Assembly (NCBI GenBank): GCA_026710425.1
Contig: JAPORB010000142.1
Coordinates: 1-36,746, forward strand
Source: Gammaproteobacteria bacterium
GTDB taxonomy: Bacteria; Pseudomonadota; Gammaproteobacteria; Pseudomonadales; Pseudohongiellaceae
DNA length: 36,746 nucleotides
Reading direction: 5' to 3'
Part shown: positions 13,187 through 35,764 of the stretch, one piece after another
Position numbering within the stretch: the first letter of the stretch is position 1
Layout: the number at the start of each line of letters is the position of its first letter
Notes under the pieces: generated by a model
What the model was told of the DNA's origin: nothing
The model's database searches: none
The model's input: only the letters and a program-made list of their open reading frames with translations
Position numbers and translations under genes: made by a program

Positions 13187-13891
13187 CTAGAGTTTGTATT
13201 CTTTTCGCATCTGAGCGATGCGGCGTTTCAACTCGGATTTAGAGAGGATTTTCTCAGTAACCTGTGGTAGAGGTGGCGGAGCATCAACACATAGCACCTC
13301 ACCCTTCAATACCTGTTGGCACAGCCGCTTGTAGTGTTGTCTGAACAGGGGATAAGTGACTTCCTCGCTCTGATTGGCAAGTAAATACCAGCCTGTTGCC
13401 TTACCAGCATGATAGACAGCAGGATGACTCCATTGATAGGCACTTTTGGGCGTTGGAGCCCGGCATGCTTCAACATAGGCAGCATGTTCATCCGGGAGGC
13501 CGAAAAGCTCTTTGCCCTGCTCGCAAGCATCGATCATGTCGGCAATGGTGGGTAGAAATTTGTCTGAGGAAGTCAAGGATTCTCCGGCCCGTAATATGAG
13601 CTCTGCAGGATAAGCACTCAACTGCTCCCGCCAATATTTTTTGGTAATAATTAGGTCCTCATCAACAGCAAATGCCTTGTTGTACTGATTGTGGTAGCTG
13701 TACTTAAACATCATAAAGACCTTGGAAATGGCATCAGTGTGGTCAAAGGATGCCCTATCCTGATCCGTTGCTCCAGACTGCGCTGTCCTTGGTTTCGATT
13801 CCCTAATCTGCCCAACTGCGGTCGGCAAGCTGCTCAAGCCTTGCTCTAACTTTTTCTTCTGTTGTTCTAGCAGTGTGTTGATCTTGTGCAT
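13187..13891 (-). CDS. dopE: lambda P-like replication protein, probable helicase loader (DopE-like)
   Basis: The 234-residue product is close to phage lambda P (233 aa) in length and in pattern. A weakly conserved N-terminus is followed by KYWREQL, then FLPTIADMIDACEQG, which corresponds to FLPSPGQFVAWC in lambda P. After that come an aromatic segment (YHAGKATGWYLLANQ) and a C-terminal basic stretch, ILSKSELKRRIAQMRKEYKL, which parallels the lambda P ending. Lambda P recruits DnaB helicase and loads it at the origin. A chromosomal lambda P-derived protein, DopE, has been proposed as a helicase loader in bacteria lacking DnaC and DciA. The ATG at 13891 has an excellent AGGTGA site; a GTG at 13900 sits on that site. 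It overlaps the upstream gene by 89 bp, so the two are surely cotranscribed. DnaB itself is encoded at 32161-33582. Confidence 0.72.
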   Translation of the reverse strand: MHKINTLLEQQKKKLEQGLSSLPTAVGQIRESKPRTAQSGATDQDRASFDHTDAISKVFMMFKYSYHNQYNKAFAVDEDLIITKKYWREQLSAYPAELILRAGESLTSSDKFLPTIADMIDACEQGKELFGLPDEHAAYVEACRAPTPKSAYQWSHPAVYHAGKATGWYLLANQSEEVTYPLFRQHYKRLCQQVLKGEVLCVDAPPPLPQVTEKILSKSELKRRIAQMRKEYKL

Positions 13892-15077
13892 CGATATCAC
13901 CTCGGGTTAGACGGGAATTTAAGCGGTCTGCCCAAACCATCTTGATCCATGTCAGATAAACAGTATTCCATGAAGCCCTCGCCTCCTTTCTGTCTTTCCA
14001 GTACATGACGAACTCTGGCACCTGTGCCTGCGCAAACTCTGCATCAATCTCGGCCAGTTCAAGGATTTCATAAAACTCCTTGCTAGGTTGCCAATTGTCC
14101 GGAATCAATTGCGGCGAAACGTCAGTACCGAAGGTGTCACTGGTCCTGGCCCATTGATAACGGATATGCTGAATAAATTTACTGTTCCAAGTCTTATTCT
14201 CAACTCCGCGTTCACGCCAATAAAGCACGAACTCCGGTATGGTAGCTTCAATGAAATCCCTATTAATTCCTGCACTCTCAAGAATTTCGAGGGCCTCCAG
14301 ACTGGGCCACCATTGTTGGGACATGGGCTCAAACAATTCTGAGCCACCCTGCCGGGTCTGTTCCTCGCGCCATTCCTTGACCGCATGTTTATAGAAGAGA
14401 TTGCCCCAGGAAAATCGTGCCTCCCTTCGACTTTGCCAGTAAATCACAAACTCAGGAATCAGTGAGTGTATGAAGTCTTCGGGAATGGCATGCTGCTGAC
14501 ACAATCGGATACAGTTGTCGTCCGGCTGCCAATCCGGCGGAAGCATCATGGCGGCACGAGGAGTGTCAGCCAGGTAAGTCACTCCAGCAATGGCAGCATG
14601 CTGTGTCTCAGGCGACCCGGTGGAACAAGGTATTGGAGCCACCTTGTTGTTTGTCTGACAATTCAAGTCTACAAGCTCAGTAGATGCGACGGATTTACGT
14701 TGATAATCTACGTTGTCGCCCGCAACATTTTTTGCAATAGCAATCCAGTAGTTACTATCGGTAGAACCTTGCTCAACAATCACCATGCCCAGCTTTTGCA
14801 AACTGTTTCTTACCCGATGAACATCAGCTGGCGACCAGAATGGTAGGGAGGCAACCAAGTTCCTGTCTTCCAGCTGAATCCAACTCAGGTCCGGGATACC
14901 GGGGCGACTTGCGCCACGGTGATTCAACAATTCAGAGAGACTCTGCAACAGCACCGCTTCCTCCAGCCCGATGGTGCCGGCGAGTGTGGGCGAGATGACA
15001 ATTGGGTGCTCCGGCAGCAAGATGAGCTCGTTCAGGTTGTGAGAGGTAAAATGAAAAAGCGATATGAGAATAGACAA
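13803..15077 (-). CDS. dopC: replication protein with winged-helix-like N-terminus and three tandem DnaT-type domains (DopC-like)
   Basis: Residues ~28-103 resemble the winged-helix region of phage-type replication initiators (SPTLAGTIGLEEAVLLQSL, LPFWSPADVHRVRNSLQKLG). After a ~70-residue low-conservation linker come three copies of the DnaT C-terminal ssDNA-binding type domain at about 179-238, 254-311 and 325-384. Each has the pattern W-P...IPEF-V-YW...W...F/Y...W. E. coli DnaT carries one such domain and acts in the PriA primosome. The pairing with a lambda P-like gene fits the reported DopC/DopE pair derived from lambda O and P. The start is non-ATG: TTG at 15077, or TTG at 15020 just before LPEHPIVISP, which looks more natural. 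No in-frame ATG occurs before residue 98. A short acidic/basic C-terminal tail is overlapped by the next gene. Confidence 0.65.
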   Translation of the reverse strand: MSILISLFHFTSHNLNELILLPEHPIVISPTLAGTIGLEEAVLLQSLSELLNHRGASRPGIPDLSWIQLEDRNLVASLPFWSPADVHRVRNSLQKLGMVIVEQGSTDSNYWIAIAKNVAGDNVDYQRKSVASTELVDLNCQTNNKVAPIPCSTGSPETQHAAIAGVTYLADTPRAAMMLPPDWQPDDNCIRLCQQHAIPEDFIHSLIPEFVIYWQSRREARFSWGNLFYKHAVKEWREEQTRQGGSELFEPMSQQWWPSLEALEILESAGINRDFIEATIPEFVLYWRERGVENKTWNSKFIQHIRYQWARTSDTFGTDVSPQLIPDNWQPSKEFYEILELAEIDAEFAQAQVPEFVMYWKDRKEARASWNTVYLTWIKMVWADRLNSRLTRGDIDAQDQHTARTTEEKVRARLEQLADRSWAD

Positions 15078-16889: not shown

Positions 16890-17945
16890 CTAGTTCTGCT
16901 CAGCAGGTGTAGAAAAAGAAGCGGGCTTGCTTGTCAAAAGCGGCTGTATCCATACTCGTGCAATCAATCCGATCAGTAATAAAGCAGCTAAGTGACGCCA
17001 TAGTGTGTGAGATTGGCCATGCTCCGCCACAGTGAGCAGCAGAGGCCACTGAAATGCTGCAACAAGATAATTCAGCAAAAGACCAATGGCAATGGCTGTG
17101 CCAATGACACCTACCAGATATGCCACGAGAGATTTGGTGCCCAGCTGTTCCCGGATCACTCCCATGGTTGCAATATTGGTGGCTGGTCCAGTCAACATAA
17201 ATACCAGTGCTGCACCAGGCGAGATGCCTGCAAACAATAAACTGGCTGCAACAGGTGTCGACGCCGTAGCACAAATATACATGGGCAGGCCAACAATCAC
17301 CATGATCAGCATGGCCAAAACACCATCACCCCATTGCAGAAAAAAGGATTGTGGTACGAAATAGGTAATGACGGTTGCGGCGGACAAACCAATAACCAGC
17401 CATTTGGCGGTATCTGTAATCATTCGCCCATAACCATACTTAATTGCTTCAACCAACCGCTGGGGCAATGGAGATGTTGATTCACAATTTTTGCTGGCAA
17501 AACAGCAACCTCCAGTTTGCTTGTTCGACTCCGGCTCTGATTCCTTGTCGCCAAGTCTATTGACTAGAATACCAGCTATGATCGCACTCAAAAGTGCACC
17601 AACGGGTCTCACGATGGCAAAAACCGGCCCCAACACTGCATAAGAAAAAGAGATAGAGTCGACACCCGTCTCCGGGGTCGCCACCAGAAAGGAAGCAGTG
17701 GCTCCTTTTGAAGCTCCAGCCTTGCGGATGGCCAAAGCCGTCGGAATAACACCGCAAGAGCAAAGGGGCAGAGGTGCACCAATAAAGGCACCTTTCATAA
17801 TTGAGAGAAAGCCTGGTTTGGACAGCTGTTTCTCAACCCAGCTGCTGGGTATCACCTGTTTTATGATTCCAGCCAACAGATACCCAATCAGCAACCACGG
17901 TGCACTTTCCACCACAAGATTCCAAAAAATCTGGGGTAATTCCAT
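16890..17945 (-). CDS. YraQ/ArsP-family permease, probable Zn/Cu efflux transporter (SO_0444 type)
   Basis: This is an inner-membrane permease with about eight to ten hydrophobic helices. The family signature LPLCSCGVIPTA (C62, C64) lies after the second helix. A second conserved segment, TGPATNIATMGVIREQLG, lies in the C-terminal half. The cytosolic loop between halves has a cysteine cluster (C147, C148, C154) suited to metal binding. The ATG at 17945 overlaps the zntR stop (TAATG) and has a perfect AGGAGG site, so it is translationally coupled to the ZntR-type regulator. That coupling argues for zinc or a related divalent metal as the substrate. Export is inferred from family and regulator, not shown. 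Confidence 0.82.
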   Translation of the reverse strand: MELPQIFWNLVVESAPWLLIGYLLAGIIKQVIPSSWVEKQLSKPGFLSIMKGAFIGAPLPLCSCGVIPTALAIRKAGASKGATASFLVATPETGVDSISFSYAVLGPVFAIVRPVGALLSAIIAGILVNRLGDKESEPESNKQTGGCCFASKNCESTSPLPQRLVEAIKYGYGRMITDTAKWLVIGLSAATVITYFVPQSFFLQWGDGVLAMLIMVIVGLPMYICATASTPVAASLLFAGISPGAALVFMLTGPATNIATMGVIREQLGTKSLVAYLVGVIGTAIAIGLLLNYLVAAFQWPLLLTVAEHGQSHTLWRHLAALLLIGLIARVWIQPLLTSKPASFSTPAEQN

Positions 17946-18400
17946 TAGTTGGTCCTCCTGTTGTGTATAGCATTAATGCTCGGACTATCGGCAGGCTCAA
18001 TTCCAGCCTCAAGGGCATCCATAATGGAGCAGTGGTTAGCATTCTCCGGACCACCGCAGCAACTTTCAAGAAGTCGAATCAGCGTCTGCTGCATGCTTTC
18101 AAGTTCGGCAAGCTTGCCATTAACTTCATCCAGCTTACGTCGGGTGATATCGGTGACCTCCTGGCAACTATGACTGGCCTTGTCTAGCTGAATGGAAAGA
18201 AGCTCCCCGATTTCATCCAAGGAAAAGCCGATATTGCGTGCTGTTTTGACAAACTCGGCACGCAGGATATCGGACTCGTTATAGAAGCGATAACCGGCAT
18301 CACTGCGTTCGCTGGCACTGATCAGGCCCAGTTTCTCGTAAAATCTGATGGTATGGGCAGAAAGCCCGGTATGTGCTGCGAGTTCGCTGATTTTGAGCAC
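17945..18400 (-). CDS. zntR: MerR-family Zn(II)-responsive regulator, ZntR-like
   Basis: The N-terminal MerR helix-turn-helix (LKISELAAHTGLSAHTIRFYEKLGLI) is followed by a coiled-coil dimerisation helix and a metal site. With the GTG at 18400 as start, the cysteines fall at C79, C114, C115 and C124, exactly the E. coli ZntR metal positions. His119 of ZntR is replaced by Glu, with a His at 123 that could compensate. This numbering match, and AAGAGG upstream, favour 18400 over the longer TTG start at 18421. MerR-type activators untwist a promoter with a 19-bp spacer, and just such a promoter lies at 18440-18470. It is the first gene of a two-gene operon with the permease. Confidence 0.85.
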   Translation of the reverse strand: MLKISELAAHTGLSAHTIRFYEKLGLISASERSDAGYRFYNESDILRAEFVKTARNIGFSLDEIGELLSIQLDKASHSCQEVTDITRRKLDEVNGKLAELESMQQTLIRLLESCCGGPENANHCSIMDALEAGIEPADSPSINAIHNRRTN

Positions 18401-18419
18401 GGCAGTAAAACCTCTTGGC

Positions 18420-18443
18420 AAATGTACCTGTTCGTGTACATTT
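18420..18443. promoter_or_regulatory. second dyad overlapping the -10 and start site of the zntR promoter
   Basis: AAATGTAC (18420-18427) and GTACATTT (18436-18443) form perfect 8-bp arms around an 8-base spacer. The repeat overlaps the -10 and the likely transcription start of the zntR promoter and is separate from the MerR dyad. Its position suits a repressor site. The protein that would bind it is unknown. Confidence 0.5.
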
Positions 18444-32160: not shown

Positions 32161-33582
32161 CTACGTGCCGTGGGTGTAGCTCTGATCGTAATACTGAGTC
32201 TGGGGAGCGTAGTCTTCAAAGCGAGTCAGGTTATCAATAAAGTTCAGCTTGACTTTGCCAGTCGGGCCATTCCTATGCTTTCCAATAATGATCTCGGCAA
32301 TACCCTTATGCTCTGTGTCTTGATCATATACCTCTTCGCGATAGATAAAGGCGATTATGTCTGCATCCTGCTCAATAGCCCCGGATTCTCGCAAATCTGA
32401 CAACACTGGACGCTTGTCTGTGCGCTGGTCCACACTACGATTGAGCTGGGATAGGGCAAACACCGGGCATTCAAATTCTCTGGCGAGCAACTTGAGCGAG
32501 CGGGAGATTTCCGAAATCTCATTAGTTCTGTTTTCAGTGGTTCCCTTGATTTGCATCAACTGCATATAGTCCACCACAATCATCGCCAGCGGTCCATGTT
32601 CACGCTGAATACGGCGTGCTCGCGAGCGCATCTCTATCGGGCTAATGCCGGGACTGTCGTCGATAAAAAGCGGTTTGTCCTTGAGCATTCCCACGGTAGG
32701 ATTAAATTTCCCCCATTGCTCATCGGTCAGTTTGCCAGAGCGCAAAATTTCATGGTCGATGCGACCAGCGGAAGACAACAACCGGAAAATCAAGCTCTCT
32801 GCAGGCATTTCCAGGCTGAATACCAAGGCCGGGCCTTTACCCGCAATCAGAGCATTTTCCACCAGATTCATGACAAAGGCGGTCTTGCCCATTGATGGTC
32901 TGGCGGCAATGATTATCAAATCTGATTTCTGCCAGCCGCCAGTCTTTTTGTCCAGATCCTTGAACCCGCTCGTCAATCCGGTGAGGTCGCTGTCGGAGCC
33001 AGCGAGTTCGTCAATGCGATCCACCACCCTGTGCAGTAGTGGATTGACGAACTCAGGTCCCTTGCCCAATGGACGTTCGTCGGAAATCTCAAAAACCCAT
33101 CTCTCTGCCTCATCAATGACTTCCGTTGCGCTCCTTCCGCCGGTGTTATAACCGGAAGCGGCAATGGTATTGGCTACTATTATCAGCCGACGAAGAATAG
33201 CGCGCTCCCTGATAATTTCGGCATATTCCTTGATGTTGGCGGTGCCACGCGTATACATCGTCAACTCATCGATATAGGCGATACCACCTGCCGCATCCAG
33301 CTCTCCTCGGCTGTTAAGTAACTCCGCCAGAGTCACCGCATCAATGGCTTTATTGTCATCGCTCTGTTGCATCATCATGCTGAAGATCAATTTATGCTCG
33401 TTGCGGTAAAAGTCCTCTGGAATCAGTACATCAGCAATGTTGTCCCACTCACTATTGTCCAGCATCAGTCCGCTCAGCAGTGCATGTTCCGCCTCAATGG
33501 AGTGAGGTGGCGTTTTTAGAACGGAGACATTGCCGGTGCTGGCAGGTGCAACTGTGCTGTTTGGTTCAGAAAATTCGGGCAT
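32161..33582 (-). CDS. dnaB: replicative DNA helicase DnaB
   Basis: DnaB is the hexameric 5'-3' helicase of the replication fork. The N-terminal domain (HSIEAEHALLSGLML) is followed by the linker helix and the RecA-like core with Walker A ARPSMGKT (227-234). VFSLEMPAESL and the DLRESGAIEQDAD arginine-finger region follow. The ATG at 33582 gives 473 aa; a TTG at 33612 is in frame but lies in the hairpin arm of the leader. The replication gene pair at 13187-15077 probably encodes its loader. An unusual leader hairpin (33601-33640) precedes it. Confidence 0.97.
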   Translation of the reverse strand: MPEFSEPNSTVAPASTGNVSVLKTPPHSIEAEHALLSGLMLDNSEWDNIADVLIPEDFYRNEHKLIFSMMMQQSDDNKAIDAVTLAELLNSRGELDAAGGIAYIDELTMYTRGTANIKEYAEIIRERAILRRLIIVANTIAASGYNTGGRSATEVIDEAERWVFEISDERPLGKGPEFVNPLLHRVVDRIDELAGSDSDLTGLTSGFKDLDKKTGGWQKSDLIIIAARPSMGKTAFVMNLVENALIAGKGPALVFSLEMPAESLIFRLLSSAGRIDHEILRSGKLTDEQWGKFNPTVGMLKDKPLFIDDSPGISPIEMRSRARRIQREHGPLAMIVVDYMQLMQIKGTTENRTNEISEISRSLKLLAREFECPVFALSQLNRSVDQRTDKRPVLSDLRESGAIEQDADIIAFIYREEVYDQDTEHKGIAEIIIGKHRNGPTGKVKLNFIDNLTRFEDYAPQTQYYDQSYTHGT

Positions 33583-33600
33583 GAAGTTCAGTCTGATTGT

Positions 33601-33640
33601 CCAAGACAACAAACACGCATTGTATGCGTCTGTGTCTTGG
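33601..33640 (-). promoter_or_regulatory. strong leader hairpin upstream of dnaB
   Basis: CCAAGACA (33601-33608) and TGTCTTGG (33633-33640) enclose a second perfect pair, ACGCAT (33615-33620) and ATGCGT (33624-33629), around TGT. The dnaB RNA would fold 14 pairs in a 40-base element ending 18 bases before the ATG. No T tract follows, so it is not a terminator. It may control dnaB translation or be a protein site. The rest of 33641-33918 holds AT-rich repeats of TATAGAG (near 33812-33834), perhaps a promoter, and no gene. Confidence 0.5.
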
Positions 33641-35533: not shown

Positions 35534-35764
35534 TCAGGTCTGATGACTATCGGTATAGGGAATCAACGCCAGGTAACGCGCTCTCTTGACAGCAGTTGCG
35601 AGCTGCCGCTGATAACGGGCTTTGGTGCCGGTAATGCGACTGGGTACTATCTTGCCGGTCTCCGACACATACTCGCGTAAGGTTTCCAGGTCCTTGTAGT
35701 CAATCTCTTTGATTCCTTCGGCTGTAAACTTGCAAAATCTGCGACGGCGAAAATAACGAGCCAT
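35534..35764 (-). CDS. rpsR: 30S ribosomal protein bS18
   Basis: bS18 binds bS6 on the 30S platform. The 76 residues are complete: [17 protein letters not shown] at the N-terminus, the [27 protein letters not shown] core and a basic C-terminus ending in an [12 protein letters not shown] segment. The ATG at 35764 has CAGGA. It follows rpsF by 26 bp. The priB gene that separates rpsF and rpsR in E. coli is absent here. Confidence 0.98.

Follow-up and report, generated by a model that had tools for sequence, protein, structure and literature searches.

A chromosomal DopC/DopE-type gene pair with three DnaT units, the probable DnaB loader of a Pseudohongiella-like bacterium

A lambda P-like gene and its O-like partner, lying together on a gammaproteobacterial contig, form a DopC/DopE module that is very probably (we put this at roughly 0.85) the sole loader of the replicative helicase DnaB in this organism. 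The window (the whole stretch of DNA that was analysed, 36,746 nt) comes from a Pseudohongiella-like lineage, whose genus includes OX638378.1 from an uncultured Pseudohongiella, and both frames are present on its minus strand, flanked by ettA and a kinase-like gene. As far as sequence can tell, the case is made by homology of DopE to lambda P, three DnaT units in DopC, a tail shared with phage O proteins, the status of the two genes as a core pair, and the finding that this pair and a detectable DciA exclude one another. No cell can do without helicase loading, and Brezellec et al. (Genome Biol Evol 9:1561, doi 10.1093/gbe/evx111) are said to have proposed in 2017 that DopC/DopE, a chromosomal pair derived from lambda O/P, serves bacteria without dnaC/dnaI and dciA. 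The window pair is a member of this known kind, as the original prediction had it. It consists of a P homologue and an O-like partner, kept as a chromosomal core pair in a host with no dciA or dnaC match over cut-off. The features discussed below are:

13803..15020, minus strand: dopC-like gene (O-like partner), 405 aa from the TTG at 15020; the open frame from the TTG at 15077 has 424 aa
14769..15020, minus strand: N-terminal O/DnaD-like (winged-helix-type) domain of DopC, residues 20-103 of the 424-aa frame, assigned by sequence matches
14349..14543, minus strand: DnaT unit 1, PF17948 at 69.3 bits
14139..14327, minus strand: DnaT unit 2, PF17948 at 86.8 bits
13920..14105, minus strand: DnaT unit 3, PF17948 at 72.5 bits
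13806..13823, minus strand: DRSWAD tail, proposed DopE-docking peptide; the C-terminal end of DopC reads ADRSWAD
13897..13903, minus strand: GAGGTGA, ribosome-binding-site-like, for dopE and inside dopC, read from the sequence
13803..13891, minus strand: overlap of the dopC 3' end with the dopE 5' end, 89 nt
13187..13891, minus strand: dopE-like gene (lambda P-like helicase loader), 234 aa, identified by PF06992, PHROG 109 and profile alignment to lambda P
32161..33612, minus strand: dnaB, presumed client helicase, start codon uncertain; TIGR00665 at 553.3 bits (cut-off 385.25), PF03796 at 351.3 bits and PF00772 at 110.8 bits

Profile searches bore out both family assignments that had been made for the pair. 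The DopE protein matched Phage_lambda_P (PF06992) at 34.4 bits (2.3e-8), above the gathering cut-off of 26, and DopC matched the DnaT domain (PF17948) at a total of 203.3 bits against a cut-off of 25, with each of its three stretches scoring over 25. DopE also matched PHROG 109, 'P-like helicase loader', at 67.3 bits (3.7e-18), and a DopE profile aligned to lambda P at 18.6 bits over profile positions 34-228 and to the P protein of Pseudomonas phage PAJU2 at 107.1 bits. With 234 residues to the 233 of lambda P, it is indeed the lambda P-like product of nearly identical length that had been predicted. The DopE profile matched no solved structure in the PDB by sequence; used as queries, lambda P found a PDB chain and lambda O did not. 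PMC6391071 places lambda P between the C-terminal domains of DnaB and has it extend to a neighbour's linker helix, and PMC9912922 gives the same LH-DH site of DnaB for DciA. By analogy, DopE is expected to use the DnaB site of lambda P and DciA.

For the partner, a winged-helix-like N terminus and three DnaT-type domains had been predicted, and both have sequence support: PF17948 matches three times, and the N-terminal stretch is O/DnaD-like by sequence, its tblastn matches including phage genes for a 'replication initiation O-like protein', 'Primosomal protein I' and 'DnaD-like helicase loader'. Among phage replication PHROGs, DopC matched 1408, 1032 and 6493, the last at 4e-6. A profile search of the genome found DnaT domains nowhere beyond the three in dopC. 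As in E. coli DnaT, a C-terminal ssDNA-binding domain is present, here three times per chain; unlike DnaT, DopC has an O-like N terminus in place of the DnaT N-terminal domain, and no PriB was found in its genome. A dedicated DnaT orthologue was ruled out as an identity for DopC, the equivalog model NF002770 reaching 12 bits against a cut-off of 201 and matching the C-terminal part only. Queried against the PDB, a single DnaT unit of the window gave chance matches only.

In E. coli, the C-terminal domains of DnaT line the lagging strand as a filament (PMC13377028) and hold two nucleotides at each junction between them (PMC13377028, PMC4132743); Phe124, Tyr127 and Trp128 contact the bases (PMC4132743). 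The F..YW spacing of these residues is also aligned in the DopC units. Searched as F..[YF]W in distinct proteins, the triad is present in every second and every third unit (109/109 each) and in 99/109 first units of distinct three-unit proteins, and in 8/23 single-unit DopC relatives, one broken fragment left out. The proposal that triplication means ssDNA wrapping over a long stretch was unsupported as stated: at about two nucleotides per unit a chain would cover about six, and a long stretch would therefore need DopC oligomers.

The two reading frames are tightly interlocked. The start of dopC is most likely, if not certainly, the TTG at 15020 rather than the one at 15077, because that is where most of 25 relatives start to align locally. 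For dopE, the ATG at 13891 is most likely the start rather than the GTG at 13900, and GAGGTGA lies five bases upstream of this ATG; a start at 13891, inside dopC, leaves 89 nt common to both genes. The overlap is 89 nt in 30/30 loci of the own genus. Among 80 named loci from GTDB genomes, DopC was found in 73 (71 with three units, two with two units) and was absent from the stretch in seven; the overlap was measurable at 71 loci and came to 89 nt in 67, 92 nt in two and 107 nt in one, with no overlap in the remaining one. Lambda shares with this pair a P-family loader of near-equal length and a C-terminal [DN]x[SDNT]W tail in O, but lambda O has no DnaT domain by profile search and overlaps P by 4 nt, whereas DopC has three units and an 89-nt overlap.

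Three genera of the family (g2, g3 and g8; loci L180-L199, ten genomes) have dopC and dopE apart, and all ten keep a DRSWA-type tail on DopC, which suggests that the tail is conserved for its own sake and not by double coding. In the separated DopE proteins the profile match starts at model position 8 to 43, and the start no longer fits the model; a few initial residues, MKKADSL or MKSIDQI for example, are often still there. Judging from these ten genomes, much of the conservation of the DopE start in other genera may be due to the overlap.

Both genes are phage-type and have phage relatives, as would be expected if the pair were a prophage remnant in the chromosome. We regard that explanation as scarcely credible, and it was rejected on the distribution of the pair, a core component in its family and beyond. 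The neighbours are not phage genes, as had been claimed from the start: one is EttA (TIGR03719, 953.6 bits) and the other a P-loop kinase-like protein that passes PF00485 narrowly (22.1 bits, cut-off 22). The overlap is near-constant, and the pair is near-universal in the family, with DopE in 129/137 genomes (90/92 near-complete ones) and DnaT domains likewise in 129/137 (91/92). It occurs in 27 families of the order. This core-gene distribution contradicts a prophage remnant and points to domesticated chromosomal genes that have been kept vertically. Loci from Gilvimarinus, Cellvibrio, Marinimicrobium and Zhongshania are relatives of the window gene.

The wider order was sampled with 391 genomes of at least 90% completeness, evenly drawn from a larger group. 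DopE was detected in 241 of them, DnaT domains in 243, both in 238 and DciA in 119; since the genomes are related, 238 against 119 do not amount to 357 independent events, and the Fisher value of the cross-tabulation is not to be taken as a probability. No genome of the 391 combined DciA with the full DopE/DnaT pair, and none of the 238 pair-holding genomes had a DciA match even at E<=0.001. DciA occurred with DopE alone in three genomes and with DnaT alone in three, and DnaT was found alone, without DciA, in two. A tally of family labels gave the same picture: among 43 families sampled, 27 had the pair, 16 had a DciA match and none had both, two of the 16 being doubtful (f41 with sub-cut-off matches only, and f23, whose one listed match lies in a 1745-aa frame). 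None of DciA, DopE or DnaT was seen in 32 of the 391 genomes, which probably have a diverged DciA and could have another loader; together with the two that showed DnaT only, they indicate that the searches miss some loaders.

In a sample of 370 genomes from the class, DopE was found in eight, the own genome included. Three loci outside the order (L169, L170 and L171), from genomes of 1.2-1.3 Mb and 31-32% GC that we infer to be SAR86-like, have two or three DnaT units with an overlapping DopE. Another class-level locus (L173) has three DnaT units, and L172, L174 and L175 have no DnaT unit nearby. The genomes of one family of the order (f32: G167, G197, G223, G246, G268) each have 3-7 DopE-like and 2-6 DnaT matches; the extra copies are possibly prophages or duplicated loaders.

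The original reading calls for a host without dciA and dnaC, and the genome-wide search agreed with it. Its assembly (3.81 Mb, 258 contigs, 99.95% complete) gave no match to DciA (PF05258), a profile that matched 7/14 control genomes, and 12 weak matches to the DnaC/IstB type (PF01695), all below the cut-off. A dnaC elsewhere in the genome was rejected, the frames at four of these 12 sub-cut-off matches (L004-L007) resembling, by eye, DnaA, Lon, a PhoH-like protein and an ABC exporter. Hence neither DciA nor DnaC/DnaI, families for which the same job as that of DopC/DopE is presumed, passes its cut-off here. The absence of priB from between rpsF and rpsR, which had been noted at the outset, was confirmed as well: an rpsR-like frame (35534-35764, identified by eye) directly follows rpsF and leaves no space for it, and the best PriB match elsewhere in the genome scored 22.2 bits against a cut-off of 72.

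Could a diverged DciA still act as loader, with DopC and DopE as auxiliaries? In some families the DciA profile scores poorly, with matches down to 21.2 bits, and 34/391 genomes of the order show neither DciA nor the full pair. Furthermore, a six-frame search of the whole genome with PF06992 did not return the dopE of the window itself, so false negatives are possible for diverged families and genome-wide negatives carry some doubt. Against this stand the 0/238 DciA matches at E<=0.001 among pair-holding genomes and the absence of any family with both, and we consider a hidden DciA quite improbable. DopC/DopE as the sole loader remains our preferred reading.

Triplication of the DnaT domain, as originally noted, is real, though not special to this locus. 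Exactly three units are found in 125/129 family genomes with DnaT, the others having 2, 4, 5 and 5, and three is the usual state in the family and in most pair-holding families of the order. A single unit is found mostly in five families (f2, f5, f7, f24, f35) and in one genus (g105) of f38, four units in genera g21 and g101 of f14, and two, four or more in scattered genomes. The single-unit relatives of DopC in these five families lie at loci L043-L064 of order genomes; in the f2 example and 3/4 f7 examples the open frame has 153-181 aa, too short for the O-like N-terminal domain.

In a tree of 100 DnaT units taken from 49 loci, built on 66 columns and of limited support since its bootstrap had not settled, the units group by position, with 12 changes for five groups against a mean of 59 for shuffled labels; none of the positional groups forms one clade. 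Second units share a mean identity of 0.53 and third units one of 0.49, against 0.35 between second and third, and first units are the most diverged, at 0.34 among themselves. This pattern can be read as a single tripling of the units before the families split, so that three would be the ancient state. Six single units (f2, f7 and g105 of f38) cluster with first units of f38, f43 and f27, and in mean identity single units do not differ with respect to the three positions (0.29 to each).

At its C-terminal end DopC has a short motif in common with phage O proteins. In its final form the pattern was [DN]x[SDNT]W in the C-terminal 45 residues; a first version (D, one or two residues, then [SDN]W, in the last 40 residues) had matched 19/51 phage frames against 5/367 background frames. 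The final pattern is present in 156/163 DopC-like frames and in 132/138 distinct ones, as judged by the last 150 residues. The sets overlap, since one genome may belong to both the genus and the named set; their counts are 30/31 in the own genus, 21/21 for three- or four-unit and 22/23 for one-unit proteins of the order, 10/10 for separated genes, 72/74 for named loci and 1/4 at class level. The six distinct DopC proteins without it are L032 (a broken-frame fragment), L057, L162, L169, L171 and L173, the last three of which have the related tails KEW, HEW and RHW. The tail occurs in 3/1241 other frames, a background that consists of open frames, 150 aa or longer, from either strand of the named and phage loci and so includes many that are not genes.

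Where a phage has a P of lambda or PAJU2 type, the frame next to it in the O position has the tail in 34/36 cases, lambda O included (as N-T-D-W); this count is not an independent test because the pattern was widened after the phage tails had been seen. Many of the 36 are near-copies; reduced to frames distinct by their last 40 residues, 22/23 match (the match of L232 being internal and chance-like), 21/23 within the last 20 residues. The tail was found in 0/15 upstream frames at phage loci detected with the DopE profile, and it was not found in a Stenotrophomonas phage initiator, in whose stretch there is no P. At viral contigs (L239-L251), frames upstream of several DopE-profile matches are without the tail and have an SVFEGSF- or VLEG-F-like stretch near their end, perhaps another docking peptide. 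PMC6022878 suggests the C-terminal region of lambda O as a P-binding domain, and since the tail is common to phage O and DopC, we propose that it docks DopE.

The pair could work as follows. The N-terminal O/DnaD-like domain would help to position DopC on DNA, at oriC and perhaps together with DnaA. So would the three covalently linked DnaT units of the protein, acting as a short pre-assembled filament that grips about six nucleotides of ssDNA. The C-terminal D-x-S-W tail would bind DopE, much as phage O is believed to bind P through its C-terminal region, and DopE would hold DnaB like lambda P, open the ring and pass DnaB to the ssDNA held by DopC. The binding of DopC to DopE through the tail, the binding of ssDNA, the binding and loading of DnaB and the place of action are all steps that we infer.

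An alternative is that the pair serves replication restart only, as DnaT does with PriA and PriB, and that DnaB is loaded at oriC by another, unrecognised factor. Restart is the setting in which DnaT is known (PMC13377028, PMC4132743), and with PriB not found here DopC could replace it. Restart alone would, however, leave the lack of any DciA match in pair-holding genomes unexplained; the O-like N terminus and O-type tail of DopC are initiator features, and the DnaT equivalog model falls far short of its cut-off. We therefore hold a role confined to restart to be unlikely, and prefer DopC/DopE as the loader of DnaB in general.

A bolder proposal, quite possible if still short of probable, would make DopC a covalent three-unit DnaT filament on a phage-O chassis, serving both origin firing and fork restart without PriB and so uniting the roles of DnaA and of the DnaT oligomer, which are separate in E. 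coli. [DN]x[SDNT]W would then be a general O-to-P docking signal, from lambda to chromosomes, and triplication would have happened once, early in the radiation.

Taken together, DciA appears to have been exchanged for a phage-derived pair in a large block of Gammaproteobacteria, and the exchange can be followed here through the individual families sampled from one order. The Cellvibrionales are an order that was listed in 2016 (PMC5109545) as having neither loader. The DopC/DopE proposal of 2017 is cited in PMC13326638, PMC6784150 and PMC9912922, and PMC13326638, from 2026, lists DopE as a loader family. Among the literature matches listed, none was a work directly on DopC or DopE and none had the term tandem DnaT, which says nothing beyond the library searched. 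Placement of the window pair in a Pseudohongiella-like lineage and the reach of the pair into 27 families of the order, and into a few further genomes from elsewhere, extend this picture. The triplication, the near-fixed overlap and the tail are additions made here, which may overlap with the content of Brezellec et al. 2017. With the DnaT triplication, the lambda O-like tail and the near-fixed overlap, what was a phylogenetic proposal becomes a mechanism that point mutations can test, and these added details connect helicase loading at the origin with helicase loading at restart.

Elsewhere in the window, positions 16890-18421 (minus strand) encode an SO_0444-type Cu/Zn efflux transporter (NF033936), adjoined by a MerR-like regulator frame identified by eye.
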